From: Propionivibrio sp.
GTDB taxonomy: Bacteria; Pseudomonadota; Gammaproteobacteria; Burkholderiales; Rhodocyclaceae
Assembly (NCBI GenBank): GCA_016705685.1
Contig: JADJLB010000002.1
Location: forward strand, 549,690-613,689
Length of the DNA stretch: 64,000 nt
Direction: 5' to 3'
Shown here: positions 27,252-51,944 of the stretch, in pieces
How the letters are laid out: the number at the start of each line of letters is the position of its first letter
How positions within the stretch are numbered: the first letter of the stretch is position 1
Notes under the pieces: model-generated
What the model was told of the DNA's origin: nothing
Database searches by the model: none
What the model saw: the letters and a program-made list of their open reading frames with translations, nothing else
Position numbers and translations under genes: made by a program

Positions 27252-27453
27252 GGCAACTCCTGCTGAGTAGCTTCGGCGGCAAGATGCAAACCGGCAAACC
27301 GGTGATTCGGGTGCCGTTTGCTGAAGTGTTCGCAATATTCGAGCCAGTTTTGACCGGCGTCGCCCAAACCGCGCAACCACGGGCTTTCAAGCAGTGCGCG
27401 CGCAGCGCCGGAATGCTGTCGAGAGGCTGGGGAAAGGTCATTCGACGACCAAG

Positions 27454-27468: not shown

Positions 27469-27599
27469 TATGAAAGGCGCTGGGTCTCTGCGATCACCAC
27501 GCCACCGCCGGCCGTGGTGCCCGCGACTTGTTGTGGCGAAATCGGGTCGAATTGCTTCGAATCGGGTGCAATTCCCCGTATTTGCGGCGTTTCGACGCA

Positions 27600-27615
27600 T
27601 GGCACGGCAGTTGCA
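27600..27615 (+). promoter_or_regulatory. Sigma54-type (-24/-12) promoter of the DoxX-NDH-2 gene
   Basis: TGGCAC-GGCAG-TTGCA gives the invariant GG-N10-GC spacing and a full consensus match. It lies 54 bp before the ATG at 27670, on the correct strand. The rest of 27252-27599 shows no gene. Confidence 0.6.
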
Positions 27616-27669: not shown

Positions 27670-29901
27670 ATGAACGATAGATCAAACCCGGAAATGAGGG
27701 CCGGCAACGCCAGGCCAAAGACGGTGCTGAAGTACGCCGCGTGGTTGAAATTCAGCGGCGTCAGCGTCGATTTCTTCAATCGCGTCGTACGGCGCCTGAT
27801 CTGGCCCAAGGCGGATCTGGTGATTCGACTGTGGCTGGCCGAAATCTTCTTTGTATCCGGCGTACTGAAGCTGACCGCCTGGCATACGGCGCTCGATCTG
27901 GCCACCAACGAATATGCGGTCAGCTGGATGAACCCGGTAAGCGCCGCGTACACCGGCGTCGGCATCGAAGTATTGGGCGGCGTTCTGCTCGCGATCGGGT
28001 TCATGACGCGCTACGCCGCCATCCCGATGCTGATCCTTTCACTGGTCATACAGTTCGCCTATCTGCCCTTCGACAACCAACTGTTTTGGGCCCTGCTGTT
28101 TGCTTGGTACGCGATTCAAGGCGCCGGCCCGCTTTCGATCGATAGTCTGCTCCGGCGCGGCCTGGCGGATAGCGCCTTGCCTCTCGTGCCGTCCATTGTG
28201 CGCGCCTCGGACCGGGTACGCGTTCACCTTGGCCCGATCATCTTGTCGGCGATGCGCCTTTGGCTCGCTTCAACGCTGCTGTTGGCGGTGTGGCCGGGTT
28301 TCCTGGACCAGAACCAACTGGCGGCAGCGGGAATGTGGCTGCCGCTGCAAACCGTCGCCTATATGCCGGTAAGCGTTGCCCTCGTCGGCGGCGTCTTGCT
28401 GCTGATGGGTTTTGCCACGCGTTACGTCAGCATCGCGCTGATTCTCGCGCTGTTTGTCGGGACGATGATCGACCCGCGCCTGAACGATGCGGCTTATTTG
28501 TTGATGTTCTTCGTGATCTTCATCGTCCATGGTGCGGGAGCGATCTCGGTCGATCATATCGTCGCGCGGCTGTTCGAGAAATTCCTGCCACATCTTCATC
28601 TTTCGGCCGAATCGCTGGCCGCGTTGCCGCGCGTCGTCATCGTCGGCGCGGGCTTTGGCGGCATCAGTTGCGCAGCGGGACTGCGTGGCAACGCTGCTTC
28701 GGTTACCGTGATCGATCAGGCCAATTACCATCTGTTTCAACCGCTGTTGTATCAAGTCGCCACCGCGGCGCTTTCGCCGGGAGACATTGCCGCGCCGGTG
28801 CGCCCCCTGTTTCGCGACTCCTTCAGTACGCGGGTATTGCTTGGCAAGGTCAGCAGCATCGATACAGAAAAGCAAGTTGTGTCCACCGGTGAAAAGGAAA
28901 TACCGTATGACTATCTGGTGCTGGCGACTGGTGCCGCGCACAGCTATTTCGGCAAGGACCAGTGGGCGCCCTATGCGCCGGGCCTGAAACGGATCGAGGA
29001 TGCCACGGACATCCGGCGCCGGATCCTCACCGCTTTTGAGCGCGCTGAAGCCGCCGAAGACAGTGTGGCACGCGAATCGTTGCTGACCTTTCTGATCGTT
29101 GGCGGCGGGCCGACGGGCGTCGAACTCGCCGGAGCAATCGCCGAACTGGCCCGTTTCGGGATGGAAAAGGAATTCCGCAATTTTGACCCGGCCCATGCGC
29201 GCGTGATCCTCGTGCAATCTGCGCCGCGACTGCTGCCTGCGTTCCCGGAAAAGCTGGCCGCCATTGCGCAACGCTCGCTCGAACAACTGGGTGTTGACGT
29301 GAGAATCGGTAGCCGTGTCGAACACATCGATGCTGATGGTGTAACGGTAAGCGGCGAACGCATTCCTGCCAAGACCGTTTTGTGGGCGGCGGGCGTCACC
29401 GCCTCGCCAGCGGCGAAATGGTTGCAAGTCGAAGCGGACAATGCCGGCCGCGTGATAGTCGGGCCCGATCTGAGCGTGCCGGGTCTGCCCAATGTCTATG
29501 CCATTGGCGACACCGCTGCCAGCAATGCGTGGAATGGGCAGGGCGTTCCAGGATTGGCGCCTGCGGCCAAGCAAGGCGGTGCCTATGTCGCGCGACACAT
29601 TCGCGCGAGGATCGCCGGCAAGACAACGCCGCCACCCTTTGCCTACCGCCACCTCGGCAGCCTCGCCACCATTGGCCGAAAAGCTGCGGTCGCCGATTTT
29701 GGCTTCTTGCGGCTATGGGGTGCCCCGGCGTGGTGGTTGTGGGGCTTCGTCCATGTCGGCTTCCTGGTCGGATTGCGCAATCGTCTGAGCACCATGGTCA
29801 ATTGGTTCTGGACCTACCTGACCTTTGGTGGCGGCATTCGCCTGATTACCGGCAGCGATACGCTGCCCGTGGCGGAAAAGGCGGTGAAGCCGTCGGCGTG
29901 A
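27670..29901 (+). CDS. DoxX-DoxX-NADH dehydrogenase type II fusion
   Basis: The protein has 743 residues; ATG 27670 follows GGAG. Two consecutive DoxX-like four-helix membrane modules (about 45-155 and 180-300) are fused to a flavin-dependent NAD(P)H dehydrogenase of the NDH-2 type. The latter has FAD motif VIVGAGFGGISCA (about residue 320), YHLFQPLLYQVATAALSP and NAD motif LIVGGGPTGVELAG (about 470). The enzyme part should pass electrons from NAD(P)H to quinone without proton pumping, and the DoxX modules may anchor it. A sigma54-type promoter lies just upstream. Confidence 0.88.
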   Translation: MNDRSNPEMRAGNARPKTVLKYAAWLKFSGVSVDFFNRVVRRLIWPKADLVIRLWLAEIFFVSGVLKLTAWHTALDLATNEYAVSWMNPVSAAYTGVGIEVLGGVLLAIGFMTRYAAIPMLILSLVIQFAYLPFDNQLFWALLFAWYAIQGAGPLSIDSLLRRGLADSALPLVPSIVRASDRVRVHLGPIILSAMRLWLASTLLLAVWPGFLDQNQLAAAGMWLPLQTVAYMPVSVALVGGVLLLMGFATRYVSIALILALFVGTMIDPRLNDAAYLLMFFVIFIVHGAGAISVDHIVARLFEKFLPHLHLSAESLAALPRVVIVGAGFGGISCAAGLRGNAASVTVIDQANYHLFQPLLYQVATAALSPGDIAAPVRPLFRDSFSTRVLLGKVSSIDTEKQVVSTGEKEIPYDYLVLATGAAHSYFGKDQWAPYAPGLKRIEDATDIRRRILTAFERAEAAEDSVARESLLTFLIVGGGPTGVELAGAIAELARFGMEKEFRNFDPAHARVILVQSAPRLLPAFPEKLAAIAQRSLEQLGVDVRIGSRVEHIDADGVTVSGERIPAKTVLWAAGVTASPAAKWLQVEADNAGRVIVGPDLSVPGLPNVYAIGDTAASNAWNGQGVPGLAPAAKQGGAYVARHIRARIAGKTTPPPFAYRHLGSLATIGRKAAVADFGFLRLWGAPAWWLWGFVHVGFLVGLRNRLSTMVNWFWTYLTFGGGIRLITGSDTLPVAEKAVKPSA

Positions 29902-30008
29902 CGGAACGGCGACAACGCAGCTGCTATTATTGATATTTCCATAACTCATGACAACCGTTAATCATCTGAAACGTTGTATCTCCAAGAGCGATATTGGAGA
30001 ATGTTGTC

Positions 30009-34402: not shown

Positions 34403-35416
34403 TTAGGGTTGTTCAAGCAGTGCCGCATGCCCGTCCGGGTCGCGGATCATCAGGCCAGTCCGTTGCGGGTTGCTGCCAAAGCGAATCGTTCCTGGAGAGA
34501 TGTGATCGTAATGCTGCTGCCGGGCGGCGCTTTCAGCAGCATTGACGTCGGCCCGCATGTTGATATGCCAGCTCCAAAGATCGTTGCTATGCGTATCGAC
34601 GGGTGCGGGTCTTCCCGTGCGCGGCGCAATGTATTCGAGCAGTTCGACGCCGGGCCCGGAGGCGGCACGAAGTGCGGTGATGCGCAGACGCGCGCCGAAG
34701 ACGTTGTTCAGGCGTTCCTGCTCGACGCCGTAGTTTTCGCTGTTGCCCGCGACGCGCAAGCCGAGGGTATCGCGGTAGTAACGCAGGCTGGCATCGGTAT
34801 TGGCGACGACGATGGCGGTGTGGTCGATGCCGAGGAACAGCTGGTCGGTTTTGCGCTGCCATTTGGTGTCGCCTTTGCCGGCGGGGAAGTGCAGCACTTC
34901 AAGGGCATGTCCGTCGGGATCGCGGAAATAGAAAGCCGAAATGCCTCCTGCATTGGGGTTCCATTGCGGCAGCAGTTGCGGGCCGGTTGAGGCGTGTTGC
35001 ACCTGATGCTCGCGCAACCAGGCGTAGGCTCGGCCCATATCCGAGACGATAATCGCGACATGCTGAAACCAGCCGTCGTTGCTTTTCGAATCGACCGGAA
35101 CGGGGCGGCCGGGCGGGGCGATAAATTGCTCGAGTTGCAGGGTTTCGTCGCCGAGCCTTAGCTTGACGATGCGGATGCGCGCGCCGAATACGCCGTAGAG
35201 ATGTTCGTAATCGTCGCCGCTAACCTCGCTGTCGGAAACCGGTTCAAAGTTCAACACGTCGCGATAGAACGCCAGGCTGCGGTTCATGTCGCTGACCGTC
35301 ATCGCGATGGAATCGACAGCGTGGATGATCGGCTCGCTGGCCGCAGCCAGCCCGGTGTAGAGCAGAACCGCGATGGCCAAGGCGGCACGCAATTGGATCT
35401 TTAGAAAAGCCTTCAT
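34403..35416 (-). CDS. Exported protein with two VOC (glyoxalase-fold) domains
   Basis: The protein has 337 residues. A signal peptide (about 1-26, ending LAAA) is followed by two vicinal-oxygen-chelate domains, at about 32-175 (AMTVSDMNRSLAFYRDVLNF to FYFRDPDGHALEVLHF) and 195-337 (IDHTAIVVANTDASLRYYRD to IRDPDGHAALL). Each keeps the His and Glu positions that bind metal in the family. A periplasmic location is unusual for VOC enzymes. It is the last gene of the five-gene minus-strand operon that starts at 41331. The reaction is unknown. Confidence 0.82.
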   Translation of the reverse strand: MKAFLKIQLRAALAIAVLLYTGLAAASEPIIHAVDSIAMTVSDMNRSLAFYRDVLNFEPVSDSEVSGDDYEHLYGVFGARIRIVKLRLGDETLQLEQFIAPPGRPVPVDSKSNDGWFQHVAIIVSDMGRAYAWLREHQVQHASTGPQLLPQWNPNAGGISAFYFRDPDGHALEVLHFPAGKGDTKWQRKTDQLFLGIDHTAIVVANTDASLRYYRDTLGLRVAGNSENYGVEQERLNNVFGARLRITALRAASGPGVELLEYIAPRTGRPAPVDTHSNDLWSWHINMRADVNAAESAARQQHYDHISPGTIRFGSNPQRTGLMIRDPDGHAALLEQP

Positions 35417-35446: not shown

Positions 35447-36931
35447 TCATATGGTGAGGGCATCGCAGGATGCGCTGGCATGGCTGACCAATTGTTCGGC
35501 CAGATGTCTTGAAACGCGCAGGCTCCAGGCGTAAATCGTCAATGATGGATTGACGCGGCTGGAACGCGGCAGGATGCTGCCATCGACGACGTAAAGCGAT
35601 TTCAGCCCATGCACCTGTCCCTGTGCATCCACAACCGAGCTGGCCGGATCGTTGCCGGTCGTCAGCGTGCCGCTGACGTGCGCCGTCCCTCCCAAGCCGA
35701 TGCGCTCCGAGAAGGCTAGCAGTCCGCTGCGTGCAAGGCTGTTGCGGAAGCGTCGAACCAATTGCTCATGCTCCAGCACCGAAGCCGGAGTGCGCGCGGC
35801 GTCGTAATCCAGGATCGGCGGTTCTCGGTCGGATGCGGCCAATACGCGATTCTCGGGGTGCGCGCCGTCCTCGGTTTGCAGAAAGAAGCCGTAGGCGCGG
35901 GCGCCAATCTGACGGGCCAGGAAGCGAGGTACGGCCTTGGGGATGAGCGTGCTGATCAGTTCGCCATCGAAGCCCAGTGGCTGCACGCTGCTATGCGGCA
36001 AACCCGGGTCGAGAAAGAGCGTTGTCTTGCGAATCAGATCGGTCTTTTTCGTAAGCGAGATAGCGACCATCGCCGTCAGCAAATGCAGTTTGAGATGGCG
36101 GCCGACGCTGGCATAGCACGGGAGCAGCGCCGTCAATCCCTGGTTTTCGATGAACTGCTGGAGAAGTCGGGGCGAATGCAGGGCGCCGGCCGCCAGGAGC
36201 ACCGAACGACCGTGGCATGTCGTGCCATCCGTGAGTTGCACGCCGCAAATGCGTGCAGGGTCACGCCCTTCCGCGACCAGCTTGGTGACAGCGACGCCGG
36301 TCATCACCTGGAGATTTGGCAATGCGCGGACCGGCGACAGGAATGCCGTTTCGGCGTCCCCTTTAAGATTTCCCGGCGAGGCAAATCCGTCGAAATGCCG
36401 CGCCTCGGCGTCATTATCCAGAATGGATTTGGACAACCCGAGCGGCAATGGTTCGCTTACCCAGTTCGGCGTGTGCTTCGCCAGACGGGAGACGATCGCC
36501 TGCAGATCGGGTTCGCAGGCAAAGTGGCGCACGCCAAGCATTGCCTCGGCCTGCTCGTAGTACGGCGCCAGGTCATCGTAATCGATAGGCCAGGCCGGGC
36601 ACCGATGCGCCGGGTCTGCCGCGAATTCATGACGCCCGTAACGCAACAGTGCCGCACCGTACCATTTGGTCTTGCCGCCGAGGTTGAAATACTCTTCGGG
36701 CCTGATTTGGTGTCCGTGGCCGTCTAGCCAGTCTTCCCGGCTCTTGAAGCTTCCGTCATGTACGACTTTCTGGACGTCGAGCGTGCTGGCATCGCGCGGC
36801 AGGACTTGCCCTTTTTCGATGAGCGCGACACGCAGGCCGGCGCGCGCAAGATTGTAAGCTGCGGCACAGCCACCTGCGCCGGAACCGACGATGATTGCGT
36901 CGTAAGGATCGTGGATTTGCGGAGTATTCAT
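35447..36931 (-). CDS. GMC-family FAD oxidoreductase
   Basis: The protein has 494 residues from ATG 36931 (MNTPQIHDPYDAIIVG). The FAD-binding motif VGSGAGGCAAAYNLARAG is N-terminal, a middle region contains NLGGKTKWYGAALLR, and the C-terminal part has HVSGTL, SLYVVDGSILPRSSRVNPSLT, the usual GMC ending with the catalytic His/Asn area. Relatives oxidise sugars, sugar alcohols or choline-like alcohols. No signal peptide is seen. Position in an operon with an SDR and a glucosidase suggests a carbohydrate or polyol substrate (inference). Confidence 0.88.
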   Translation of the reverse strand: MNTPQIHDPYDAIIVGSGAGGCAAAYNLARAGLRVALIEKGQVLPRDASTLDVQKVVHDGSFKSREDWLDGHGHQIRPEEYFNLGGKTKWYGAALLRYGRHEFAADPAHRCPAWPIDYDDLAPYYEQAEAMLGVRHFACEPDLQAIVSRLAKHTPNWVSEPLPLGLSKSILDNDAEARHFDGFASPGNLKGDAETAFLSPVRALPNLQVMTGVAVTKLVAEGRDPARICGVQLTDGTTCHGRSVLLAAGALHSPRLLQQFIENQGLTALLPCYASVGRHLKLHLLTAMVAISLTKKTDLIRKTTLFLDPGLPHSSVQPLGFDGELISTLIPKAVPRFLARQIGARAYGFFLQTEDGAHPENRVLAASDREPPILDYDAARTPASVLEHEQLVRRFRNSLARSGLLAFSERIGLGGTAHVSGTLTTGNDPASSVVDAQGQVHGLKSLYVVDGSILPRSSRVNPSLTIYAWSLRVSRHLAEQLVSHASASCDALTI

Positions 36932-36945
36932 CGTATGCTTTCTGA

Positions 36946-37743
36946 CTAAGGCAAGGGAGGAACATAGCCGCAATGTATGCAGCGCTGGGTTCTTGAATGG
37001 AGCAATTTGGCGCAGCCCGCTTCATGACCGCAGCGTGGCCGCACATACCAGGCTGCAGCGCACTGCATGCCGAAGACCGGTGCCGTGAGGTAGATCCAGA
37101 AGCCGGTCCAAACCTCTGCCGGCCAGGCCGAGGCAAAGCTTCGCGCGGGGTTCATGCTCATGCCTGACAACGGCGCTTCAAGCGCGATATAGACGGCGAC
37201 CATCAGGCCCGCGCCGAGGCCGGTATACTTACCGTAACGTTCGGAGTTGGAGACCAGCAAGACCACGGCCATCAACAACGCCGAAATGGCGAACTCGGCG
37301 ATGAAGGCGAGCAACGCGCCTTGCGGACCGGGGACGGTGATTACGTAACTTACCGGCGCTTCGGTAAAGGCGCCTTGGCATACAGCCATGACCAGCAATA
37401 CACCCAGCGTGCCGCCGATGAATTGCGCGGCGATGTACATTGCGGCGTCGCAGCGGGCAATCTTCTTCAAGCGCAAGAAAGTCAGCGTCACTGCCGGATT
37501 CATGTGCGCGCCTGAACGTTGGCCCCATGGCGAGTAGATCAGGGCAATGGCCGTCAGCCCCATCGCCATGCCGATCATGACGCGTCGCGCATCGGCATTG
37601 TCAAACGCGTGGCGCAGCGGTGAGCCGGGATATTCGAACAAGGTGGTGAATATCCCGGCCGACACCATGAAACTCCCCAGCGCCCAGCCTTCGATGAGAT
37701 ATTCCGGCCAGTGCTGGCGCAGTGCGGACCTGATTTCCGCCAT
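36946..37743 (-). CDS. Aquaporin/MIP-family channel with C-terminal Cys/His tail
   Basis: The protein has 265 residues. ATG 37743 (MAEIRSALRQ) is the likely start and lies next to the stop of the SDR gene. Six hydrophobic helices and both NPA boxes are present: AHMNPAVT and MSMNPARSFA. The family conducts water, glycerol or small neutral solutes. The C-terminal tail (about 232-265) contains CGHEAGC and CIHCGY, an unusual metal-ligand-like cluster. The first NPA has Ala/His before it, as in AqpZ/NIP-like channels; selectivity cannot be fixed from sequence. Confidence 0.88.
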   Translation of the reverse strand: MAEIRSALRQHWPEYLIEGWALGSFMVSAGIFTTLFEYPGSPLRHAFDNADARRVMIGMAMGLTAIALIYSPWGQRSGAHMNPAVTLTFLRLKKIARCDAAMYIAAQFIGGTLGVLLVMAVCQGAFTEAPVSYVITVPGPQGALLAFIAEFAISALLMAVVLLVSNSERYGKYTGLGAGLMVAVYIALEAPLSGMSMNPARSFASAWPAEVWTGFWIYLTAPVFGMQCAAAWYVRPRCGHEAGCAKLLHSRTQRCIHCGYVPPLP

Positions 37744-37744
37744 C

Positions 37745-38605
37745 TCAACCTCCAGTCTCGAATCCGGGGTAGAGACACATGCCGCCGTCAACAAACAGGC
37801 TGATGCCATGTACGTAATCGGCGTAATCGGATGCCAGCCAGACCACCGCGCGCCCGATTTCGTCGGCTTCGCCGATGCGTTTGTAGGGAATCAGTTTCAG
37901 CAGTTCGTTGTACGCTTCCTGGGTTCCCCAGGCTTCCATGTTGATTGGCGTCCGGATGGCGCCCGGGCAAATGCTGTTCACCCGGATGCGATAGGGCGCG
38001 ACTTCTTGCGCCAGGCTTTTCATCATCAACATCACACCGCCCTTGGAGGTTGCGTAGTTGACATGTCCAGCCCAGGGAATCACTTCATGCACCGAGCTGA
38101 TGCACAACACCTTGCCCGCCGCGCAGGACACCGCCGGATTGACGCCCCGACGCTTGAATTCGCGTACCGCTTCGCGGGCGCACAAGAACTGGCCGGTCAG
38201 ATTGACGCCGATGACCTTGTTCCATTGCGCCAGCGTCAGGTCTTCGAATGCCGCATCTTGTTGCAGGCCGGCGTTGTTGACCAGAACGTCGATGGTGCCG
38301 AAATGATCCAGCATGCGGCTGAACATCGCCTTGACCTGCGCTTCGTCGGATACGTCGGCGCGAATCGCTTCGGCACGCACGCCGAGGTGCCGAATTTCTT
38401 CACAGGCATGCTGCGCCTTGTCTTCGTCGGCCACGTAGTTGATGACGACGTCCGCGCCGGCTTGGCCCAGCGCCATGGCGATGGCCAGGCCGATGCCCGA
38501 GCTGGCGCCGGTGACCAAGGCCTTTTGACCCAGCAGCATTTGTTGCGGCGGAACCTGCGGCATCACTGGTTTCGGCAGATAAGAGGGATGTACTAAGGTA
38601 TCCAT
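37745..38605 (-). CDS. Short-chain dehydrogenase/reductase
   Basis: The protein has 286 residues: cofactor motif TGASSGIGLA, NNAGLQ, catalytic Ser in CISSVHEV and YATSK (Y-x3-K), and a C-terminal FVDGGMCLYPGF. This matches the glucose 1-dehydrogenase-like SDR group. It lies between the glucosidase and the aquaporin genes, so it may oxidise the glucose released or a related polyol (inference). AGGAGG precedes the coding region at about 38628-38633 (minus strand complement not evident), so the start relies on frame and family length. Confidence 0.87.
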   Translation of the reverse strand: MDTLVHPSYLPKPVMPQVPPQQMLLGQKALVTGASSGIGLAIAMALGQAGADVVINYVADEDKAQHACEEIRHLGVRAEAIRADVSDEAQVKAMFSRMLDHFGTIDVLVNNAGLQQDAAFEDLTLAQWNKVIGVNLTGQFLCAREAVREFKRRGVNPAVSCAAGKVLCISSVHEVIPWAGHVNYATSKGGVMLMMKSLAQEVAPYRIRVNSICPGAIRTPINMEAWGTQEAYNELLKLIPYKRIGEADEIGRAVVWLASDYADYVHGISLFVDGGMCLYPGFETGG

Positions 38606-38652: not shown

Positions 38653-41331
38653 TCAGTGCGTGCTGGCGTGCCTCGGTTGCAACAATTTGGCGACCAGTCC
38701 TGTCCAGCCGGTTTGATGCGTTGCACCGACACCGCGGCCGTTGTCGCCGTGAAAGTATTCGTAAAACAGGACATGGTCGCGGAAGTGCGGGTCATCTTGC
38801 ATTTGCGGGTGATGTGAATACACCGGGCGCTTTCCATCCTGGTCCTTGAGAAATATCCGGGTCAGGCGGCGGGCGACTTCATCGGCGGCTTCGTTGATCG
38901 ATACGAAATTGCCCGAACCCGTCGGACACTCGATGCGGAAATCGTCGCCGTAATAGTGGTGAAACTTCTGCATCGACTCGATCAGCAAATAGTTCACCGG
39001 GAACCAGATCGGGCCGCGCCAGTTCGAGTTGCCGCCGAATAGTCCGGAATTAGATTCGGCCGGCAGATAGTTCACCGACAAATCACTGCCGTTCACATTG
39101 AATACATAGGCATTGCGGTCGTGATACTTTGAAATGGCGCGGATCCCGTAGTCGGACAGAAACTCGGTCTCGTCGAGCATGCGTTTCAACAAGCGCTTCA
39201 TGCGACGGCCGCGCAGTAGCGACAACAGCCGCCGTTGACCTTCGCCTTTCTCGTTCCAGTGGGATACCAACGCAGCGAGTTCGGGGCGGTAGTCGAGAAA
39301 CCATTCCAGACGGCGCTTGAATTCAGGCACCTTGTCGAGCAGGTCGGGCTCCAGCGTCTCGACGGCGAACAGCGGTATCAGGCCGACCATCGAGCGCACC
39401 TTGAGCGGCACCATGCGGTCGTCGGGAAGGTGCAGAACGTCATAAAAGAATTCATCCTCTTCGTTCCACAAGCCGTTCTCCGCATCGCCAAAATTGTTCA
39501 TCGCTTCGGCAATGCTCAGGAAGTGCTCGAAAAACTTGGTGGCGATGTCCTCATAGACGTGGTTATGCTGCGCCAGCTCAAGCGCGATGCGCATCAGGTT
39601 GAGCGCATACATGGCCATCCAGCTCGTGCCGTCAGCCTGGTCGATATGGCCTCCGGTTGGCAAGGGTGCGCTGCGATCGAAGACGCCGATGTTGTCGAGG
39701 CCGAGAAAGCCCCCCTGAAATACATTGCGTCCTTCGGCATCCTTGCGATTCACCCACCAGGTAAAGTTCAGCATCAGCTTATGGAATACGCTTTCGAGAA
39801 ACGCCAAGTCGCCCGTTTGGCAGCCGCGTTGCTTACGATCCATCTGAAAAACGCGCCATGTCGCCCAAGCGTGCACCGGCGGGTTGACGTCGCCGAAGGC
39901 CCATTCGTAGGCCGGTATCTGGCCGTTGGGGTGCATGTACCACTCGCGCGTCAGCAGCACGAGCTGCTCTTTGGCAAACTCCGCATCAATGATGGCCAGC
40001 GACAGGGTGTGGAAGGCCAGATCCCAGGCGGCATACCACGGGTATTCCCATTTGTCGGGCATCGATATGATGTCCGCGTTGTTCAGGTGCTGCCAATCGC
40101 GATTGCGGCCATGCTTGCGTTGCGCAGGCGGTGGCAATTGCGCCGGATCGCCTTTGATCCAGTCGCGAACGTCGAAGTGGAAAAACTGCTTGCTCCAGAT
40201 CATTCCGGCAAAGGCCTGGCGCTGAACCAGGCGGGCATCTGCATCGACGATGTCCTTTTGAATGTCGGCATAGAACGCATCGGCCTCATGCAGGCGTTCG
40301 GCGAACAGCGCATCGAATTTGGCAAACGGGTCCGGCAAAGCGTTCTTGCTGAGTCGTAATTCAAGCGTAGCCGAGCCGTTCGCCGGAACGTTCAAGTAGT
40401 AGCGGGCCGCTGCCTTGGTGCCTTGCCGGGCGGGATTGACGGCAGCGTCACGCGAATTCACGACATACTCGTGAAATGCGTCCTTGAAGTAGCCGGGAGT
40501 ATCGACTTTGTACAAGCGCTGAACATTGGTTTCATTCTCGGTAAACAACCATTCGCATGGCCCATCGGCGTAGCAGTGGTAGGTGCCCACAACGGGGTCT
40601 TCGATGCTGACGTGATTGTCGCGCAGTTGCATCTGCGGTTTCGGCTGGTCCTGCTTCCAGCTCCAGGTATTGCGAAAGAAGAGTTGTGGCAATGCCTGCA
40701 ATTCGGCGGCTTCCGGGCCACGATTGTGAATCGTTACGCGCATCAAGATATCTTCGGGTTCGGCCTGCGCGTATTCGACGAATACGTCGAAATAACGGTT
40801 GCCGTTGAAGGCGCCGGTATCGATCAGTTCGTATTCGGGCGCGTCCTTGCCGCGCCGCTGGTTTTCATGCAGCAGATCGGCGTAAGGAAATTCGCATTGC
40901 GGATATTTGTAGAGCATTTTCAGATACGAATGCGTCGGTGTGGCATCGAGGTAGTAATACAACTCCTTGACGTCTTCGCCGTGATTGCCCTCCTCGTTGG
41001 TGAGGCCGAAAAGGCGTTCCTTGAGTATCGGGTCGCGCCCGTTCCAGAGGGCCAGCGACAGGCATAGATGTTGTTGGTGGTCGGAAAACCCCATGAGCCC
41101 ATCTTCACCCCAGCGGTAAGCGCGGCTGCGGGCGTGATCGTGGGGAAGATAATTCCAGGCATCCCCTTGCGGGCTGTAGTCTTCGCGTACCGTGCCCCAC
41201 TGTCTTTCGCTCAGATATGGCCCCCAAAGTTTCCAGGCGGGCTCCTTCGGTGAGCACTGCGCGAGGCGTTGGCGTTCAACGGGAATTCGTTGCTGCGCAT
41301 TCAGTGTTTCTTCGGTGACATCGGCTTTCAT
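38653..41331 (-). CDS. GH63/MGH1-like glucosidase
   Basis: The protein has 892 residues from ATG 41331 (MKADVTEETLN). It matches the large bacterial MGH1-like/GH63 glucosidase family: WGPYLSERQWGTVREDYS and GEDGLMGFSDHQQ in the N-terminal part, an (alpha/alpha)6 catalytic barrel later with WDLAFHTLSLAIIDAEFAK and GPIWFPVNYLLIESM. No signal peptide, so it acts in the cytoplasm, probably on alpha-glucosidic oligosaccharides or glucosylglycerate-like solutes. It is the first gene of the operon controlled by the sigma54-type promoter at 41502-41517. Confidence 0.87.
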   Translation of the reverse strand: MKADVTEETLNAQQRIPVERQRLAQCSPKEPAWKLWGPYLSERQWGTVREDYSPQGDAWNYLPHDHARSRAYRWGEDGLMGFSDHQQHLCLSLALWNGRDPILKERLFGLTNEEGNHGEDVKELYYYLDATPTHSYLKMLYKYPQCEFPYADLLHENQRRGKDAPEYELIDTGAFNGNRYFDVFVEYAQAEPEDILMRVTIHNRGPEAAELQALPQLFFRNTWSWKQDQPKPQMQLRDNHVSIEDPVVGTYHCYADGPCEWLFTENETNVQRLYKVDTPGYFKDAFHEYVVNSRDAAVNPARQGTKAAARYYLNVPANGSATLELRLSKNALPDPFAKFDALFAERLHEADAFYADIQKDIVDADARLVQRQAFAGMIWSKQFFHFDVRDWIKGDPAQLPPPAQRKHGRNRDWQHLNNADIISMPDKWEYPWYAAWDLAFHTLSLAIIDAEFAKEQLVLLTREWYMHPNGQIPAYEWAFGDVNPPVHAWATWRVFQMDRKQRGCQTGDLAFLESVFHKLMLNFTWWVNRKDAEGRNVFQGGFLGLDNIGVFDRSAPLPTGGHIDQADGTSWMAMYALNLMRIALELAQHNHVYEDIATKFFEHFLSIAEAMNNFGDAENGLWNEEDEFFYDVLHLPDDRMVPLKVRSMVGLIPLFAVETLEPDLLDKVPEFKRRLEWFLDYRPELAALVSHWNEKGEGQRRLLSLLRGRRMKRLLKRMLDETEFLSDYGIRAISKYHDRNAYVFNVNGSDLSVNYLPAESNSGLFGGNSNWRGPIWFPVNYLLIESMQKFHHYYGDDFRIECPTGSGNFVSINEAADEVARRLTRIFLKDQDGKRPVYSHHPQMQDDPHFRDHVLFYEYFHGDNGRGVGATHQTGWTGLVAKLLQPRHASTH

Positions 41332-41501
41332 CGGTTTTACTCCAGGTCGTAGAATTTCAACCACACGCCAGACTGGCGCTCGGCCGCCGCTGAGCATCAT
41401 TGGTAACGGCGTCTTTTCTGTGGCGTGACTCCTGTCTGATTTTCGGCTTGAGCCCTGCGACTCGTTCTTGTCTACGCTGCGCAGGTCTTGCGTTTAGTAA
41501 T

Positions 41502-41517
41502 AGCAATGCGTGTGCCA
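41502..41517 (-). promoter_or_regulatory. Sigma54-type promoter of the glucosidase operon
   Basis: Minus strand TGGCAC-ACGCA-TTGCT: full -24/-12 consensus with GG-N10-GC. It lies about 170 bp upstream of the glucosidase ATG. The stretch 41332-41778 holds no convincing gene. Confidence 0.72.
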
Positions 41518-41623
41518 GTCCGAATGAAATCGTCGATTTCCCCACGGATACAGGGACGCCGCAGACATGGGGTGTGCCGAAATATGCCGTAGAAACCAGC
41601 GCTGGCCACCACCTGAGACGGCT

Positions 41624-41639
41624 CCGCAATATTTGGCGG
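41624..41639 (-). promoter_or_regulatory. CCGCAAT-N5-GCGG activator-site candidate, copy 1
   Basis: CCGCAAT-ATTTG-GCGG, 107 bp upstream of the -24 element at 41517. The same 11 fixed bases at the same spacing occur upstream of two other sigma54-type promoters in this window. Confidence 0.6.
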
Positions 41640-41778
41640 TGCTGTTGGTCGGATTTGAAGCGAAAAAAGACTTCGACGCGCGCCACATGAGTTGACGACA
41701 TGCGCCAGCCAGTTATTGCTCCGAGCAGCCCGGAGTCTCGGGGAAAGCCGTTAGCGAATAAAGCGAACTTGTTGGCTC

Positions 41779-42039
41779 TTACGGTTTCGATAGCGCCAGC
41801 AGACCGGCGATGAAGCCGGATTCGCCGATGAGCTCAAGGCCATTCTGGCGGAGAGTACGCAGCAGTTCGGCGCCTTGCGGGTCAACATAACGCAATCCGG
41901 AAAGATTCACGCGCACCGCTCCCTGTGCCTGAGCACCCGCAATGACGGAGCGTACTTCATCCAGCCACGGGCTGAGCAGCTTTCCTTCGAGATGGATCGT
42001 CGTGATCTGAACGGCGGGGGTCTGCGTAATTCGTAACAT
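41779..42039 (-). CDS. Stand-alone STAS-like protein
   Basis: The protein has 86 residues with the STAS/SpoIIAA pattern: HLEGKLLSPWLDEVRSVI, then VNLSGLRYVDPQGAELLRTL, where the usual phospho-serine position after D is replaced by Pro-Gln-Gly. Such small proteins act as anti-sigma antagonists or as partners of sensors. It has its own sigma54-type promoter (42105-42120) and activator site and is next to the activator gene, so it may feed back on that system (inference). Confidence 0.75.
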   Translation of the reverse strand: MLRITQTPAVQITTIHLEGKLLSPWLDEVRSVIAGAQAQGAVRVNLSGLRYVDPQGAELLRTLRQNGLELIGESGFIAGLLALSKP

Positions 42040-42104
42040 GAGAAAGCCTTTGTGCGAAGTTCAGGATTGCGCCCCATGAAAGGCATGAAGGCACTAGAGC
42101 ACCG

Positions 42105-42120
42105 AGCAAATCCCGTACCA
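42105..42120 (-). promoter_or_regulatory. Sigma54-type promoter of the STAS gene
   Basis: Minus strand TGGTAC-GGGAT-TTGCT: -24 with one common deviation (C to T), perfect -12, GG-N10-GC. It is 66 bp upstream of the STAS ATG. Confidence 0.62.
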
Positions 42121-42215
42121 GTTGGCGCATCAAAGGCGAGACTCTACGCATCGCCCCAAAATCGGGCCTCGTCGCCTGGCGGCTCGGGAACACATCCGGA
42201 AGGGCCTTGCGTCCG

Positions 42216-42231
42216 CCGCAATAAGAGGCGG
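42216..42231 (-). promoter_or_regulatory. CCGCAAT-N5-GCGG activator-site candidate, copy 2
   Basis: CCGCAAT-AAGAG-GCGG, 96 bp upstream of the -24 element at 42120, between the activator gene and the STAS gene. Confidence 0.58.
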
Positions 42232-42265
42232 AAATCCGCGATGGACGACGGCGGCGTGAACCAGG

Positions 42266-44206
42266 TCAGTGCTCGCCGCTGCGTGCGATTCCGAGCTTCT
42301 TCATGCGGTGTCGCAGCGTACCGGGTTTAAGGCCCAGCAGACTTGCGGCGCCCCGACTGCCCTCGATCACCCAATTGGTTTCGCGCAACATGGCGACGAT
42401 GTGTTCGCGCTGCACCGAATCGAGATCGTCGCCATTGGTCTTGACGTGTATGCCTTGTGGCACGCCGGTGTCGGGTGTCTGGGTCGTCGTGACCGTAGAA
42501 TGAGCGCTGGGCTTCGGCAGCACGTCGGTGTCGATTTGCAATGAACGACCGCTGCTCAGAATGAGCGCCCGCTCGATGATATTTTCAAGCTCGCGAATAT
42601 TGCCTGGCCACGCATACTGCATGAGCCGTTGCAAGGAATCGGCATCGATGGTGTCGACATGGCGACCGATGCGTGGCGCATATTTTTGCACGAAGAAATG
42701 CGTCAGCAGCGGGATGTCGTCCTTGCGCTCGCGTAGCGGCGGCAATTCGACCGGAAATACGTTGATGCGGTAGTAGAGGTCGGAGCGAAAAATGCCCTCG
42801 CCGATGCTCTTTGCCAGATCGCGGTTCGTCGCGGCAATGACGCGAACGTCGGTCTTGATGGTCTGACTGCCACCGATACGCTCGAACTCGCGTTCCTGCA
42901 GGACGCGCAGGAGTTTGACCTGCACGTCCAACGGGACTTCGCCGATTTCGTCGAGAAAGATGGTTCCGCAATGCGCCAGTTCGAATCGGCCCAGGCGCCG
43001 CTGGATCGCCCCGCTGAACGCTCCCTTTTCGTGGCCGAACAATTCGCTTTCGACCAGGCTGGCGGGCAATGCCGCGCAGTTGATCTTGATGAACGGCTTG
43101 TCGGCGCGATTGCTGGCGGAATGGATGGCGCGGGCAATCAATTCCTTTCCGGTGCCGGTTTCTCCAGTGATCATGACCGACGAGTCGGTAGCGGCGACGC
43201 GCTGCACACGATCCAGCACCTTGAGCAAGCCGCCGCTGGCGCCGATGATCTCCTCGAAGTTGTGGACCGACTTGAGTTCTTCCTGCAGGTAGACGTTCTG
43301 CGCCTTGAGCCTGGCTTGTTCCTGCTCAAGCAAGACGCGTTCGGTAATGTCGACGAACATCGTTCGCGTGTAGTTGCCATCCGGCGCGGGGTTGGACCAC
43401 CACTGAATCCAGATCGGCTTGCCGTTGTCGTGGCGGCGCAGTTCCAGCACGACGCCGCCGGTGTCGGTGCCCTTGCCGATGGACTCGAACGCCTCGCGCA
43501 CGCGGCGTTGCGCATCCGGGGTGTTGGGCACCAGGTCTTTGCCGATCATGTGAGGAACTTCTTCGGGCCTGACCCCCAGGATATTCAGCGCCGCTCGATT
43601 GGCCCGAATGAAGCGCGAATCGAGCGTTTCATGCACGTAAGCGATGGGTGCCTCCTCAAACAAATCGCGCAGGCGCACTTCCTGATCGCGCAATTCGGCA
43701 TCCATGCGAAGGCGATCGAGTTCCGAGGCGGCGCGCCCGGCAAAGATATGGAACAGGTCCAGACGCCGCTGTTCGTAAGGCAGGGGTGACTCATCCAGAG
43801 CGCAGAGGTGCCCCAGGATGCGACCGTCGCGCGCCAGCAGCGGAACGCCAAAGTAGCTCTCAATGCCGGGTTCGGTTTCCGGATATTTTTCCTGCAGACC
43901 GGAGGGATAAAAGCAGAAGCCCCCGTCAAACACCTCCTGGCATGGCGTACCGGGCAAATCGTATTCGATGTTGGGAACGATCTTGCCACCCGACCAGAAG
44001 GCCAGCGTGCGGATTCTCTGCGGTGGCGTGAACTCGGAAATGAATGCGTGGTTGGTGCCGATTGCTTTGGCCAGGTATTCCACCAGGGTACGAAAATAAT
44101 CGTCGCCCGTGGAACTCGCCGTGCCCTCGATAATGACGCGCAGGAATTTTAGATCGGCCGCGGTCATGGCCGAGTTGCTTGTCGCCGGTGCGGAAATGGG
44201 TGGCAT
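42266..44206 (-). CDS. Sigma54-dependent transcriptional activator (GAF-PAS-AAA+-Fis HTH)
   Basis: The protein has 646 residues. A GAF-type sensor (about 20-165) and a PAS domain (about 175-295) precede the AAA+ domain: Walker A GETGTGKE (348-355), the sigma54-contact loop GAFSGA (395-400; canonical GAFTGA), Walker B TIFLDE (415-420) and the R-finger region. A Fis-type helix-turn-helix closes the protein (GAASLLGLKPGTLRHRMKKL). The architecture is FhlA/NorR-like: ligand binding in GAF or PAS should release the ATPase, which remodels RNA polymerase-sigma54. It is flanked by three sigma54-type promoters sharing one upstream element and is the obvious candidate to bind it. Confidence 0.92.
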   Translation of the reverse strand: MPPISAPATSNSAMTAADLKFLRVIIEGTASSTGDDYFRTLVEYLAKAIGTNHAFISEFTPPQRIRTLAFWSGGKIVPNIEYDLPGTPCQEVFDGGFCFYPSGLQEKYPETEPGIESYFGVPLLARDGRILGHLCALDESPLPYEQRRLDLFHIFAGRAASELDRLRMDAELRDQEVRLRDLFEEAPIAYVHETLDSRFIRANRAALNILGVRPEEVPHMIGKDLVPNTPDAQRRVREAFESIGKGTDTGGVVLELRRHDNGKPIWIQWWSNPAPDGNYTRTMFVDITERVLLEQEQARLKAQNVYLQEELKSVHNFEEIIGASGGLLKVLDRVQRVAATDSSVMITGETGTGKELIARAIHSASNRADKPFIKINCAALPASLVESELFGHEKGAFSGAIQRRLGRFELAHCGTIFLDEIGEVPLDVQVKLLRVLQEREFERIGGSQTIKTDVRVIAATNRDLAKSIGEGIFRSDLYYRINVFPVELPPLRERKDDIPLLTHFFVQKYAPRIGRHVDTIDADSLQRLMQYAWPGNIRELENIIERALILSSGRSLQIDTDVLPKPSAHSTVTTTQTPDTGVPQGIHVKTNGDDLDSVQREHIVAMLRETNWVIEGSRGAASLLGLKPGTLRHRMKKLGIARSGEH

Positions 44207-44387
44207 GATAAGTTGACCGTTTGTTCACTTTCATCTGAGCGGCGCAGATTGCAGATACTGATCGAGGCTTACCCATTGGTCGCATCCGGCCCTGATTCCT
44301 TACGGTTGTTTGCCATGGATCGCGAAACAATGCGGCGACGATATTAGCATGATGCTTGACGTGGGCAACAGGCAGGCTGCCGGCTGT

Positions 44388-44879
44388 TCACATCGGACGG
44401 CTTGCGGCAGCCAGAGGCTGCTTATCCTGGTTCTTGAACCAGAATCGTTCCAGCGCCAGGCTACCGTTGCCGAAGAGGGCAATGGTCACCAGCATGAAGC
44501 CCCACAGCACGTGTTGCGCCAGTGCCGCTTCCGACCCTTCGGCCAACAACACGTAGGCATAGGAAATCACGGCCATGAGGTTGACGGCGGATAGACCAAG
44601 CGCTCCGATACGGCCGCCCAGGCCGAGCACCAGCAAGACCGGAAAGAACAACTCGCCGAAGGTGCCGACGACGGCCGCCAATTCCGGCGGCAAGACAGGG
44701 ACATGATATTCGTCGCGGAACAAGGAAAGCGTGGTTTGCCAACTGCTGAACTTGAGCCAGCCGGACTTCAGGAACTGCCAACTGACATACCAGCGGGTCA
44801 TCAGCAGGAATAGGGGCTGCAGGGCATCCAGGGCTTGCGCCAACAGGTTGTGCAGTTTGGTGATCGTTGTCGTGTTCAT
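44388..44879 (-). CDS. DoxX-family membrane protein of the buf/gig operon
   Basis: The protein has 163 residues from ATG 44879 (MNTTTITKLHN) preceded by AGGAG. Four hydrophobic helices and ARWYVSWQFLKSGWLK-like features (here LMTRWYVSWQFLKSGWLKF) match DoxX proteins. It is the last gene of a DUF2282-DUF692-DUF2063-DoxX operon, corresponding to gigT of Cupriavidus gold-induced gigPABT. A role in membrane redox or metal handling is proposed in that system; the exact activity is unknown. Confidence 0.85.
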   Translation of the reverse strand: MNTTTITKLHNLLAQALDALQPLFLLMTRWYVSWQFLKSGWLKFSSWQTTLSLFRDEYHVPVLPPELAAVVGTFGELFFPVLLVLGLGGRIGALGLSAVNLMAVISYAYVLLAEGSEAALAQHVLWGFMLVTIALFGNGSLALERFWFKNQDKQPLAAASRPM

Positions 44880-44907
44880 TGAAGTCTCCTGAGTGTGGTG
44901 TAGCGGC

Positions 44908-45702
44908 TTAGTCATTCCCGCCAAGGTGAAAATCGGTGATTGTTTCGAGCGACAAGAGTTGTTGCAAGGTACTGCCCAGATCGAAATCGGCGTAGTTGGC
45001 GGCAACGGCATCTGTCGCCGTGCCGAGTGCAACTTTTCGCACAAACTGCTGCAACAAGGCAAAACTGGCCGGGGGCAATTCGCGCAGTTCGATATGATCG
45101 TGACGCCGAATCAGCAGGATTCTGCTGTCGCCGGCATCCAGGCGAATCTCGGCTTCGTCGGTCGAAGCGGTCTTTGCACCGGCTTGATTGGCTTTCCAGA
45201 TCGCCAACAGGGGATAGGGCGATGCGATCAGGCGCAATTCGGGGCGAAGCGCAAAGACCAGCCGCCCGTGATCGTCGGGAGCAACGTTGCCGAGCCTGGC
45301 GGGATCGAGCGGCTTGCTGTCGGCGGAAGTCAAAACCTCCTGGTAGGCCCACTCGAGAGCCGCCACATCGGCGAAGTATTCGTAGTCCGTTCCGGCCAGC
45401 TCTTTCTTCAGGAAGCCGGGGTAATGCTGCCCGAGGTATTGCAGATCCCCACAGCGCGACGGAAACCGCAGTTGATACTCTCGTGCGTTTTGCTGGAACC
45501 AGTCCGCATCGCCCAGGCGCTCGATGACCGGATAGGTCGCCTGCAACGTAGCGTGGAATCCGATCCGGTTGTTGTTGCGATAAATCTGCATGCGCTGACC
45601 GGCGGGAATACCCTGGTTGCGCAGCAGCTCCACCATGCCGCCCGCCTGCCCCGAGAGCACGGCGTCACAAAACGCGCGTTGCGTTTCACGCAGCGAGTGC
45701 AC
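44908..45702 (-). CDS. bufC: DUF2063 protein, bufferin maturation partner (BufC-like)
   Basis: The protein has about 264 residues with GTG start at 45702 (MHSLRETQRAF), chosen because GGAG lies seven bases upstream and family members begin near this point; an ATG at 45753 is possible. The N-terminal part RETQRAFCDAVLSGQ and RMQIYRNNNRIGFHATLQATYPVIERL is typical of DUF2063. In bufferin systems this protein acts with the DUF692 enzyme, presumably delivering the precursor peptide. It overlaps the DUF692 gene by 17 bp. Confidence 0.87.
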   Translation of the reverse strand: MHSLRETQRAFCDAVLSGQAGGMVELLRNQGIPAGQRMQIYRNNNRIGFHATLQATYPVIERLGDADWFQQNAREYQLRFPSRCGDLQYLGQHYPGFLKKELAGTDYEYFADVAALEWAYQEVLTSADSKPLDPARLGNVAPDDHGRLVFALRPELRLIASPYPLLAIWKANQAGAKTASTDEAEIRLDAGDSRILLIRRHDHIELRELPPASFALLQQFVRKVALGTATDAVAANYADFDLGSTLQQLLSLETITDFHLGGND

Positions 45703-46561
45703 AACGTTGCTCCAAAACACGATCCGCTTTGTGGGCTTCGGCGACCAGCACATCCAGCGCGGGAATGTCGTTGTCCCACTCGATCAAGGTGGGTACGGCG
45801 CCAAAGCAGTGCAAGGCATAGGCATAGAGCTCCCATACGGCAGCGCATACCGGCGCGGAGTGAGTATCGATGAGAATCTCCCGGTCGCCATAGCAATTGA
45901 TCGAATGCCCGGCGAGATGCAATTCCTGCACTGCCTGGGCTGGGAGCATGGACAGGAAGTGGTAGGCGTCGAAACCATGGTTGCGGGCATTGACGTAGAT
46001 GTTGTTCACATCGACCAGCAATCCACACCCGGATTTTTCCGACAGCGCCGCGAGAAATTCCCACTCGGGCATTTGATCGCCTTCAAATTCAAGATAACTT
46101 GAAATATTCTCGATCAGGATTTGCCGGCCAAGAAGATTTTGTACTTGATCGACGCGCTGGATCATATGGGTCAGCGCCTCCTGCGTATTGGGCAGGGGTA
46201 ACAAGTCATTCAGAAATCGGCCATCCACGGAGGCCCACGACAGGTGTTCGGATACCAGCATGGGCTCGCTCCAATCGACCAATCGCTTGAGTTTGCGCAG
46301 ATGCTCCGCGTCAAGGGGGTCGGTGGAACCCAGCGACAGGCCGACGCCGTGCAGACTCAAAGGGTAGAGTTCACGCGCCTTTGCCAGACTTTCGATCTGC
46401 GCGCCGCCGTCGGAAAAGTAGTTCTCGCTGTGCGCTTCGAGCCAGGCGACGGGCGGACGCTCAAGCACGATCTGCTCGTGATGCTGCGTCCGGAGACCGA
46501 TCCCCGCGTGCGCGGGAATCGGTCCCTTCGCGGCTGCCACAATATGCCGCAATGCATTCAT
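45686..46561 (-). CDS. bufB: DUF692/MNIO iron-dependent RiPP-modifying enzyme (BufB-like)
   Basis: The protein has 291 residues from ATG 46561, sharing one base with the stop of the precursor gene (TGATG). Motifs of the multinuclear non-heme iron oxidative (MNIO) enzymes are present: GIGLRTQHHEQI, WLEAHSENYF, LIENISSYLEF, LLVDVNNIYVN, LHLAGH, DTHSAPV and LIEWDND. Characterised members use two or three iron ions to convert peptide cysteines, in bufferins to thiooxazoles. The frame upstream of 46561 overlaps bufA and is not the start. Confidence 0.9.
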   Translation of the reverse strand: MNALRHIVAAAKGPIPAHAGIGLRTQHHEQIVLERPPVAWLEAHSENYFSDGGAQIESLAKARELYPLSLHGVGLSLGSTDPLDAEHLRKLKRLVDWSEPMLVSEHLSWASVDGRFLNDLLPLPNTQEALTHMIQRVDQVQNLLGRQILIENISSYLEFEGDQMPEWEFLAALSEKSGCGLLVDVNNIYVNARNHGFDAYHFLSMLPAQAVQELHLAGHSINCYGDREILIDTHSAPVCAAVWELYAYALHCFGAVPTLIEWDNDIPALDVLVAEAHKADRVLEQRCALAA

Positions 46562-46815
46562 CACTTGGCCGTGGGGCTGCCGCCAACCAGACGTTCGCAA
46601 GTTCCCTTGGGCAGCTTGATGAACTCTTTGCCCGAACCGTCGGCCTTGGATTGACCGGCACAGGCATGACCCGCACCGGCGCAATCGTTCTTGGCGGCCT
46701 TGGAAACGCCGTAACATTTTTCGGTGTTCTGATCTTCAGCCGAGTGTGCCGTCAGGCTGATCGCGCTCAGGGCAATGATGCTGCCAATGGCAGTCGAAAT
46801 AAATGCAGCTTTCAT
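46561..46815 (-). CDS. bufA: DUF2282 bufferin-type precursor peptide (BufA-like)
   Basis: The protein has 84 residues: a signal peptide (about 1-25) and a short mature part with four cysteines at 34, 45, 52 and 73 (EKCYGVSKAAKNDC, HACAGQS, GTCERLVGG), the DUF2282 pattern. Bufferins are exported, cysteine-modified peptides that bind copper and lower its toxicity; the homologous gigP is metal-induced. The next genes encode the modifying enzyme, its partner and a DoxX protein. An unusual feature is the sigma54-type promoter at 46908-46923, whereas known systems are under ECF sigma factors. Confidence 0.88.
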   Translation of the reverse strand: MKAAFISTAIGSIIALSAISLTAHSAEDQNTEKCYGVSKAAKNDCAGAGHACAGQSKADGSGKEFIKLPKGTCERLVGGSPTAK

Positions 46816-46907
46816 GGGTGACTCCTCAATAATAAAAAGTGGTTGTGGGGTTAAGTTCGGTTGTGTGCGACCGGCTTTCGCCAGAACACACTCCCTGTCC
46901 AGTAATT

Positions 46908-46923
46908 AGCAAACGCTGTGCCA
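46908..46923 (-). promoter_or_regulatory. Sigma54-type promoter of the bufferin operon
   Basis: Minus strand TGGCAC-AGCGT-TTGCT: full -24/-12 consensus with GG-N10-GC, about 93 bp upstream of the bufA ATG. Confidence 0.72.
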
Positions 46924-46997
46924 TGTAAGAAAATACATACATAACAAATAGTTACGATTTTCGGAGCGTTTGATGCCTCAACCGATGGTGGCCAGAC

Positions 46998-47013
46998 CCG
47001 CAATCTATTGCGG
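46998..47013 (-). promoter_or_regulatory. CCGCAAT-N5-GCGG activator-site candidate, copy 3 (palindromic)
   Basis: CCGCAAT-CTATT-GCGG, 75 bp upstream of the -24 element at 46923. It is the centre of a longer perfect inverted repeat, ACCCGCAAT-ct-ATTGCGGGT (46996-47015), so it probably shows the full dimer site of which copies 1 and 2 are less symmetric. Confidence 0.62.
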
Positions 47014-47732: not shown

Positions 47733-47736
47733 CAGA

Positions 47737-51839: not shown

Positions 51840-51944
51840 CCGTTTCGATTGACGGCGCTCATCCCGGCCGTGGATACTTCTGCCAGTTGCCAATACTCCG
51901 GCACGTCAGGTTTCGACCGATCGTCTTTTGCGGGGAGTCCGGAC

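Follow-up and report, generated by a model that had tools for sequence, protein, structure and literature searches.

Our analysis of a 64,000-nucleotide stretch of Propionivibrio sp. DNA (hereafter the window) indicates that the gene at 42266–44206 encodes a sigma54 bacterial enhancer-binding protein (bEBP) with a local regulon of four window promoters, on which it would act via paired 16-bp palindromes. We hold this reading to be very probable, at roughly 0.88. The promoters, the elements, their pairing and their specificity among strict sigma54 sites were found by computation, and the same architecture is conserved beside orthologs of the activator in two phyla. Binding, hexamer assembly and activation we infer from established knowledge of the bEBP family, whose members bind as dimers, form a hexamer once activated and then remodel the sigma54 closed complex. 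A first-pass annotation, made from the letters of the window alone, had proposed that this activator controls three operons together, namely a bufferin operon, a STAS gene and a glucosidase operon; our sequence comparisons speak for such joint control, with the glucosidase operon as its weakest part.

Results

Sigma54 promoters and upstream elements

The three minus-strand sigma54 promoters and three elements of the first-pass annotation were recovered base-exact at the same coordinates and strands, and all six sites are intergenic with respect to the main open reading frames (ORFs). The distances between element and promoter, 107 bp (41502), 96 bp (42105) and 75 bp (46908), likewise stood. 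As a whole, however, the set was incomplete, since a fourth promoter at 27600 had been missed (Table 1). In the 3.46-Mb genome (17 contigs), in which rpoN is present, the strict promoter pattern TGGYAYN5TTGCW was found 30 times, versus 7 times for a reversed-pattern control; four of these sites lie in the window, three of them being the promoters first annotated. Two others, L020 and L034 on contigs C7 and C13, are the same promoter-like site, both at position 2204 from the contig start, and are probably a repeated element at contig ends.

Elements were scored on a 12-position scale (CCRCMAN4TKGYGG) and on a wider 10-position scale. Four of the 30 strict sites, the three of the first-pass annotation and the one at 27600, have an element with at least 11/12 matches to CCRCMAN4TKGYGG within 220 bp upstream, whereas the best upstream match at the remaining 26 is at most 10/12 (4/4 versus 0/26, p 3.6e-5, in a test set up after the data had been seen). 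The element as originally written, CCGCAAT-N5-GCGG, is real, but CCRCNA-N4-TNGYGG describes it better, and its occurrence in pairs had escaped notice. A genome-wide scan, proposed along with it as a check, showed that the exact form is not frequent at random positions: it occurs at 4 places (5 strand matches), versus 2 for the reversed-pattern control. The 46998 element is a full palindrome and hence matches both strands. Besides the three annotated places, the exact element lies inside one coding frame, which we read by eye as a DAHP synthase. This DAHP-synthase-like gene (L001, 1042–2120, contig C1) is split over two overlapping frames, the break being either in the gene or in the assembly. 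With one mismatch allowed, the window holds 5 matches versus 4.62 expected, which is not above chance; the strength of the element therefore lies in exact matches together with position.

A partner element of at least 8/10 is present at all four window promoters, compared with about 3.5% of random window positions. Twelve window positions score at least 9/10: five of them are associated with the four promoters and each has a partner, and the other seven have none. When window and ortholog loci are taken together, 20 of 21 promoters have a partner of at least 8/10, the exception being the STAS promoter of L070 (Methylomicrobium sp. RS1; 7/10), and the spacing is exactly 19 bp in 12 of the 21. 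Three of the 21 promoters have a -12 reading TCGC and were therefore included manually.

Table 1. Coordinates of promoters, elements and genes of the proposed regulon.
Feature	Position	Strand	Remarks
Sigma54 -24/-12 promoter, bufferin operon	46908..46923	-	TGGCACAGCGTTTGCT
Primary element, bufferin	46998..47013	-	CCGCAATAGATTGCGG; 10/10; -90 from promoter
Second element, bufferin	46976..46991	-	9/10; 22 bp from first
Sigma54 promoter, STAS gene	42105..42120	-	TGGTACGGGATTTGCT
Element, STAS	42216..42231	-	CCGCCTCTTATTGCGG; 9/10; -111 from promoter
Weak second element, STAS	42236..42251	-	8/10; 20 bp from first
Sigma54 promoter, glucosidase operon	41502..41517	-	TGGCACACGCATTGCT
Element, glucosidase operon	41624..41639	-	CCGCCAAATATTGCGG; 10/10; -122 from promoter, as in L070, L071 and L080
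Weak second element, glucosidase operon	41606..41621	-	8/10; 18 bp from first
Fourth sigma54 promoter	27600..27615	+	TGGCACGGCAGTTGCA; 12/12 scored consensus positions
Element, 27600 promoter	27521..27536	+	CCGCGACTTGTTGTGG; 11/12 and 10/10 on the two scales; -79 from promoter
Weak second element, 27600 promoter	27505..27520	+	CCGCCGGCCGTGGTGC; 8/10; 16 bp from first
Sigma54 enhancer-binding protein, proposed regulator	42266..44206	-	646 aa; Pfam GAF, PAS, Sigma54_activat, HTH_8
bufA, bufferin precursor (DUF2282)	46561..46815	-	PF10048, 74.6 bits; NCBIfam BufA2 only 31 bits (cut-off 60)
bufB, MNIO bufferin maturase	45686..46717	-	NF050167, 386.1 bits (cut-off 310); true start downstream of ORF start
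bufC, DUF2063 partner protein	44908..45753	-	PF09836
DoxX gene, last of bufferin operon	44388..45062	-	PF07681; ORF as listed, true start downstream
Stand-alone STAS-domain protein	41779..42039	-	86 aa; PF13466, 24 bits (below cut-off 29.2)
GH63/MGH1-like glycoside hydrolase	38653..41400	-	PF22422, PF03200
SDR (glucose-1-dehydrogenase-like)	37745..38605	-	Pfam and NCBIfam matches
Aquaporin	36946..37809	-	PF00230
GMC oxidoreductase	35447..36973	-	PF05199
VOC (glyoxalase-like) protein	34403..35416	-	PF00903
DoxX–NADH dehydrogenase-2 (NDH2) fusion, behind fourth promoter	27670..29901	+	743 aa; Pfam DoxX, Pyr_redox_2, NDH2_C

Conservation beside orthologous activators

Within its own family, the activator was matched at 1e-20 in 23 of 199 genomes, its own included, by proteins of only 28–45% similarity. 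Footprinting within the genus was impossible for this reason, and we turned to distant orthologs. A scan of an 84,980-genome collection left 80 loci, among which L060–L080 hold near-relatives with 51–69% identity from Pseudomonadota, Planctomycetota, Bacteroidota and Verrucomicrobiota. These 21 loci, the window and a plasmid locus of Methylomagnum ishizawai (L140, 57% identity) make up an ortholog set of 23; the 59 remaining loci, of other activators, served as control. An element at -50 to -200 was found at 19 of 40 sigma54 sites in the ortholog set (12 of 23 loci) versus 0 of 84 in the control loci (Fisher p 1.1e-11), a count that is partly circular because the wide consensus was written after L060–L080 had been inspected. 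The window supplies 5 of the 19; for one of them, at 27331 (-), the element is that of 27521 in reverse reading, probably a chance match. In orthologs from Methylococcales and Planctomycetota, the same 16-bp palindrome is paired, mostly 19 bp apart, ahead of the sigma54 promoters of genes for bufferins, STAS proteins or MsrPQ. The Methylomagnum locus, met after CCRCMAN4TKGYGG had been fixed, carries two sites, a 12/12 match at -104 and an 11/12 match at -124.

Further loci were fetched with the rule fixed beforehand, from the family of a Methylomicrobium genome, where 20 of 201 genomes have an ortholog. In these 19 loci (L161–L179), the element stands at 16 of 17 sigma54 sites with a score of at least 10, in 15 loci. 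Four of them are copies of known loci; in the 15 that remain, several of which are close relatives of each other, the element is found at 13 of 14 sigma54 sites, in 12 loci. All 13 sites have a partner, at 19 bp in 12 and at 20 bp in one, and nearly all lie near -122/-103. The three new loci without elements (L166, L178, L179) also have no detectable bufferin or STAS gene in the fetched stretch, and L168 has elements with no bufferin match. At 24 loci of GAF-PAS-related proteins from the window's own family, the element was found at 0 of 8 sigma54 sites. Conservation in related genomes had been named as a further check on the element, and it is borne out beside the orthologs and in the later loci.

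The activator and its recognition helix

Pfam bears out the GAF-PAS-AAA+-Fis architecture of the first-pass annotation, with a AAA+ sigma54-interaction domain (PF00158, 241.5 bits) and a C-terminal Fis-type helix-turn-helix (PF02954, 23.7 bits, cut-off 22). In the translation, the GAFTGA loop position reads GAFSGA, which we take to be a known variant. Its best NCBIfam matches are the formate hydrogenlyase activator, NifA and NorR; among the 25 of 29 matches listed, all named bEBP equivalogs stay below their cut-offs, the best reaching 411.8 bits versus 830. Within the GAF-PAS sensor, C89 is invariant, being present in every one of the 22 rows that have no gap at that position; H133 is shared by 22 of 23 rows.

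The activator is 69% identical to its counterpart in L060, the closest relative, and near 60% to those in Planctomycetota and Methylococcales. At E values up to 1e-60, the sensor region was found in its own genome only, among 399 genomes sampled from the order, 369 from the class and 398 from the phylum. Such patchy occurrence suggests horizontal transfer; the G+C content around the gene (0.58–0.62) does not stand out from the window range of 0.57 to 0.65.

We also counted half-sites by the residue that follows TLR in the recognition helix. The TLRS class is represented by 8 sites from four Planctomycetota loci, and all 16 of their half-sites carry A at position 3 together with G at position 5. 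For TLRY (38 sites), G occupies position 5 in 17 of 76 half-sites, and for TLRH (9 sites) in 3 of 18. Planctomycetota sites thus uniformly read CCACGA; at those of Methylococcales and the window the letters vary, position 5 being mostly A or C. Two further TLRS loci, L066 and L068, carry CCACGA pairs ahead of promoters that are weaker. No element of the 16-bp form was found near a sigma54 site in L072, L073 and L076 (helix PPSTLRS), in the Bacteroidota rows or in L061, L069 and L079. In L072, L073 and L076, a longer inverted repeat (about CGCGA-N7-TCGCG, by eye) occupies the expected element place upstream of the promoter behind the activator gene, and may be the site of the PPSTLRS class. An activator tree, from which the L080 fragment was left out, joins the window with L060 (100/99) and the Methylococcales rows with each other (100/100), and the TLRH/Y class needs two changes on it. 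The link is compatible with helix and site having changed together, but it is confounded with ancestry.

Genes behind the promoters

The bufferin operon of the window comprises the constituents of a bufferin cluster: a DUF2282 precursor, an MNIO BufB, a DUF2063 partner and DoxX. Products of bufferin relatives chelate copper, according to the accessible part of PMC12452194, and by analogy this operon should make a copper-trapping peptide. Bufferin genes are also found in L060, L065, L070, L078, L080, L140 and 11 of the 15 new loci. L060 has two bufferin precursors, each with its own strong sigma54 promoter (4467, 9426), flanking the activator and STAS genes. No gene for an extracytoplasmic function (ECF) sigma factor or NrsF was found beside the bufferin genes of the window: the three ORFs upstream of bufA (47088–48644) have no Pfam match, and between 34403 and 46815 every gene has another assignment, these stretches being all that the search covered.

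Similarity searches place STAS homologs close to the activator in 10 of the 21 near-relative loci (L060, L062–L065, L067, L068, L070, L073 and L078), and in 8 of these, not in L060 or L073, they stand behind paired elements. The window STAS protein reads DPQG by eye where that of L060 has DESG, so that the usual phosphorylatable serine position seems lost in this copy. A sigma-70-type, ECF-like sigma gene follows STAS in L063 (9346–9999) and L068 (3908–4603) according to Pfam, with homologs in L062, L067 and L072, an order that would make a sigma54-to-ECF cascade. MsrPQ-like genes lie directly behind a paired promoter of their own in L071 and downstream of STAS in L068 and L078, and in L140 an annotated MsrQ follows the bufferin genes. 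Behind the other paired promoter of L071 (6780, -) lie a BufB-like remnant and an SDR.

The case for joint control of the glucosidase operon rests on its promoter and element in the window, on gene order in L080 and on neighbourhood. GH63 and SDR genes are also found near the activator in L062, L063 and L067. It could be that true targets are limited to the bufferin, STAS and DoxX-NDH2 promoters and that the glucosidase element is decorative or serves another gene, the operon being controlled otherwise. In the Planctomycetota loci, GH63-SDR adjoin the activator, yet no sigma54 promoter with an element was detected upstream of GH63. We nevertheless regard this as unlikely: the glucosidase promoter is among the 30 strict sites, its 10/10 element stands at -122, and in L080 an SDR and a GH63 fragment lie behind the bufferin genes on the same strand.

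The start codon of the DoxX-NDH2 fusion lies downstream of the 27600 promoter. Directly behind this gene, at 29948–30670 (+), we noted a transposase-type helix-turn-helix fragment (HTH_33, HTH_32), presumably IS630-like. Elsewhere in the window, Pfam identifies a caspase-domain (Peptidase_C14) protein at 50751–51839 (+), followed by a TPR-CHAT protein at 51849–55079 (+).

Discussion

From these analyses we would propose the following mechanism. The GAF-PAS part may sense a signal, upon which the activator would assemble on an element pair; its Fis-type domain is predicted to bind pairs of CCRCNA-N4-TNGYGG, with a commonest spacing of 19 bp, 65–165 bp upstream of -24/-12 promoters. The AAA+ domain would then open sigma54 RNA polymerase at the four window promoters, and the predicted targets are bufA-bufB-bufC-doxX, the STAS gene, the GH63-SDR-aquaporin-GMC-VOC operon and the DoxX-NDH2 gene.

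Apart from the circularity of the ortholog count and the kinship among the new loci, several results weigh against this mechanism. In its degenerate form CCRCMAN4TKGYGG, the element is not over-represented genome-wide (10 places versus 7 for the reversed control); two places are in the window, and of the eight outside, one has a sigma54-like site downstream (45 bp, 10/12 positions). For the form CCRCRAN4TYGYGG, the reversed control gave more matches in 4 of the 5 ortholog genomes scanned. Nine of the 21 near-relative loci (L061, L069, L072–L077, L079) have no such element near a sigma54 site, and in L066 and L068 elements precede only weaker promoters. Without a consensus, perfect 6+6 palindromes are not enriched (6/40 ortholog, 8/84 control and 2/25 other own sites at promoter score 10; 4/21, 3/15 and 0/19, respectively, at score 11), and a search for repeated 7-bp half-sites within loci yielded nothing useful. 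With a matrix built from the three window sites alone, no more than 7 of 30 ortholog sites, in L060, L070, L071, L080 and L140 only, outscored every control, with p 0.0015 versus the control loci and 0.05 versus other sigma54 sites of the own genome. Finally, the helix link is confounded with ancestry: four Planctomycetota loci account for every TLRS site, and G-type halves occur in TLRY rows too.

Two of the unfavorable observations would also fit elements that are regulatory but bound by another protein, be it a second activator or a repressor, with the local activator acting elsewhere or via weaker sites. The genome has 16 PF00158 matches, 12 of them above 200 bits including the activator itself, and the pairs in the window are irregular (16, 18, 20 and 22 bp) and lopsided. 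Such a binder is nonetheless quite improbable, since the elements accompany orthologs in two phyla, were not found near sigma54 sites of the 59 control and 24 GAF-PAS-related loci, and have half-site letters that vary with the helix class of the activator, within the confounding by ancestry noted above. That the palindromes are chance or terminator-like inverted repeats, forming transcript hairpins beside coincidental -24/-12 matches, is hardly credible and the terminator reading was rejected: the bufferin element does fold into a hairpin (-18.2 kcal/mol with z -1.39 on one strand, -20.4 kcal/mol with z -1.44 on the other) and one-mismatch elements are at chance level, but no T run follows the element, the GH63 and STAS elements show hardly more folding than shuffled sequences (z -1.06 and -0.24), and position and above all pairing recur in other genomes.

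If the activator indeed works through the paired palindromes, its signal could be envelope copper or oxidative, perhaps chlorine, stress. We offer this with low confidence and favor it because of the target functions (bufferin, MsrPQ, DoxX) and the parallels in Caulobacter and Brucella discussed below. One may speculate further, and only tentatively, that a horizontally spread regulator together with sigma54 took over an envelope copper/oxidant response that is run elsewhere by ECF sigma factors. The C89 GAF domain would then sense cytoplasmic redox or copper and switch on bufferins, MsrPQ in some carriers, DoxX-NDH2 and a sugar-oxidising operon, while site and helix would have changed in step between phyla.

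Bufferins, peptides that trap copper, form a large class described only recently, and their control, where the accessible literature describes it, lies with sigma-70-family (ECF) sigma factors. Our reading, if true, would add a second, unrelated bufferin control circuit, one that links bufferins to a sugar-oxidising operon, to a STAS protein that recurs and, in some relatives, to MsrPQ repair. Such a circuit would tell which stress bufferins answer and offer a starting point for understanding the STAS and GH63-SDR-GMC genes. Paired sites and spacing make the regulon predictable in activator-bearing genomes and testable in cultured methanotrophs.

Comparison with known systems

A sigma54 regulon with a neighbouring activator is of a known kind; its composition and the paired element appear undescribed within the literature searched. 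Sigma-70-family sigma factors and NrsF are named in the bufferin landscape paper (PMC12452194), whose main text contains none of the words activator, RpoN, sigma54 and regulator. Transcriptional regulators frequently co-occur with bufferin clusters, as stated in the accessible part of PMC13097082. The text of a sigma54-regulon survey names no DUF692, DUF2282, STAS or DoxX. In the literature searched, which most subscription papers lie outside, no paper on sigma54 control of bufferins was recognised, nor any regulon of this composition. The first-pass annotation, which knew of none either, had missed the parallel to an ECF regulon in Caulobacter.

With activators of the NorR, FhlA and NifA type, the window protein shares the AAA+ and Fis parts and the sigma54 mechanism. 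Unlike them, it has an extra PAS domain and stays below the NCBIfam cut-offs among the matches listed. MsrPQ is reportedly under a dedicated ECF sigma system induced by hypochlorite in Azospira (sigmaF). In the Brucella BcrS/AbcS system, MsrPQ likewise belongs to a hypochlorite response under a dedicated ECF sigma system, in contrast to the sigma54 system of the window, and the text does not mention DUF692, DUF2282 or DoxX (PMC8315932). The window operon resembles known bufferin (captophorin) clusters in its precursor, MNIO maturase, DUF2063 partner and DoxX, as far as these are described in the accessible parts of PMC12452194 and PMC13097082.

The closest parallel in content is the Caulobacter ECF sigmaF regulon, which the accessible part of PMC3511200 describes as metal-induced. 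It is likewise small and comprises two bufferin-type operons (DUF2282-DUF692-DUF2063, one with DoxX) and the MsrP-like YedY; in our genome, a search run without a positive control detected no MsrP homolog. The targets in the window add STAS, GH63-SDR-GMC and DoxX-NDH2. Control differs as well: an ECF sigma factor and a negative regulator in Caulobacter, as opposed to sigma54, an enhancer-binding protein and distant elements here.

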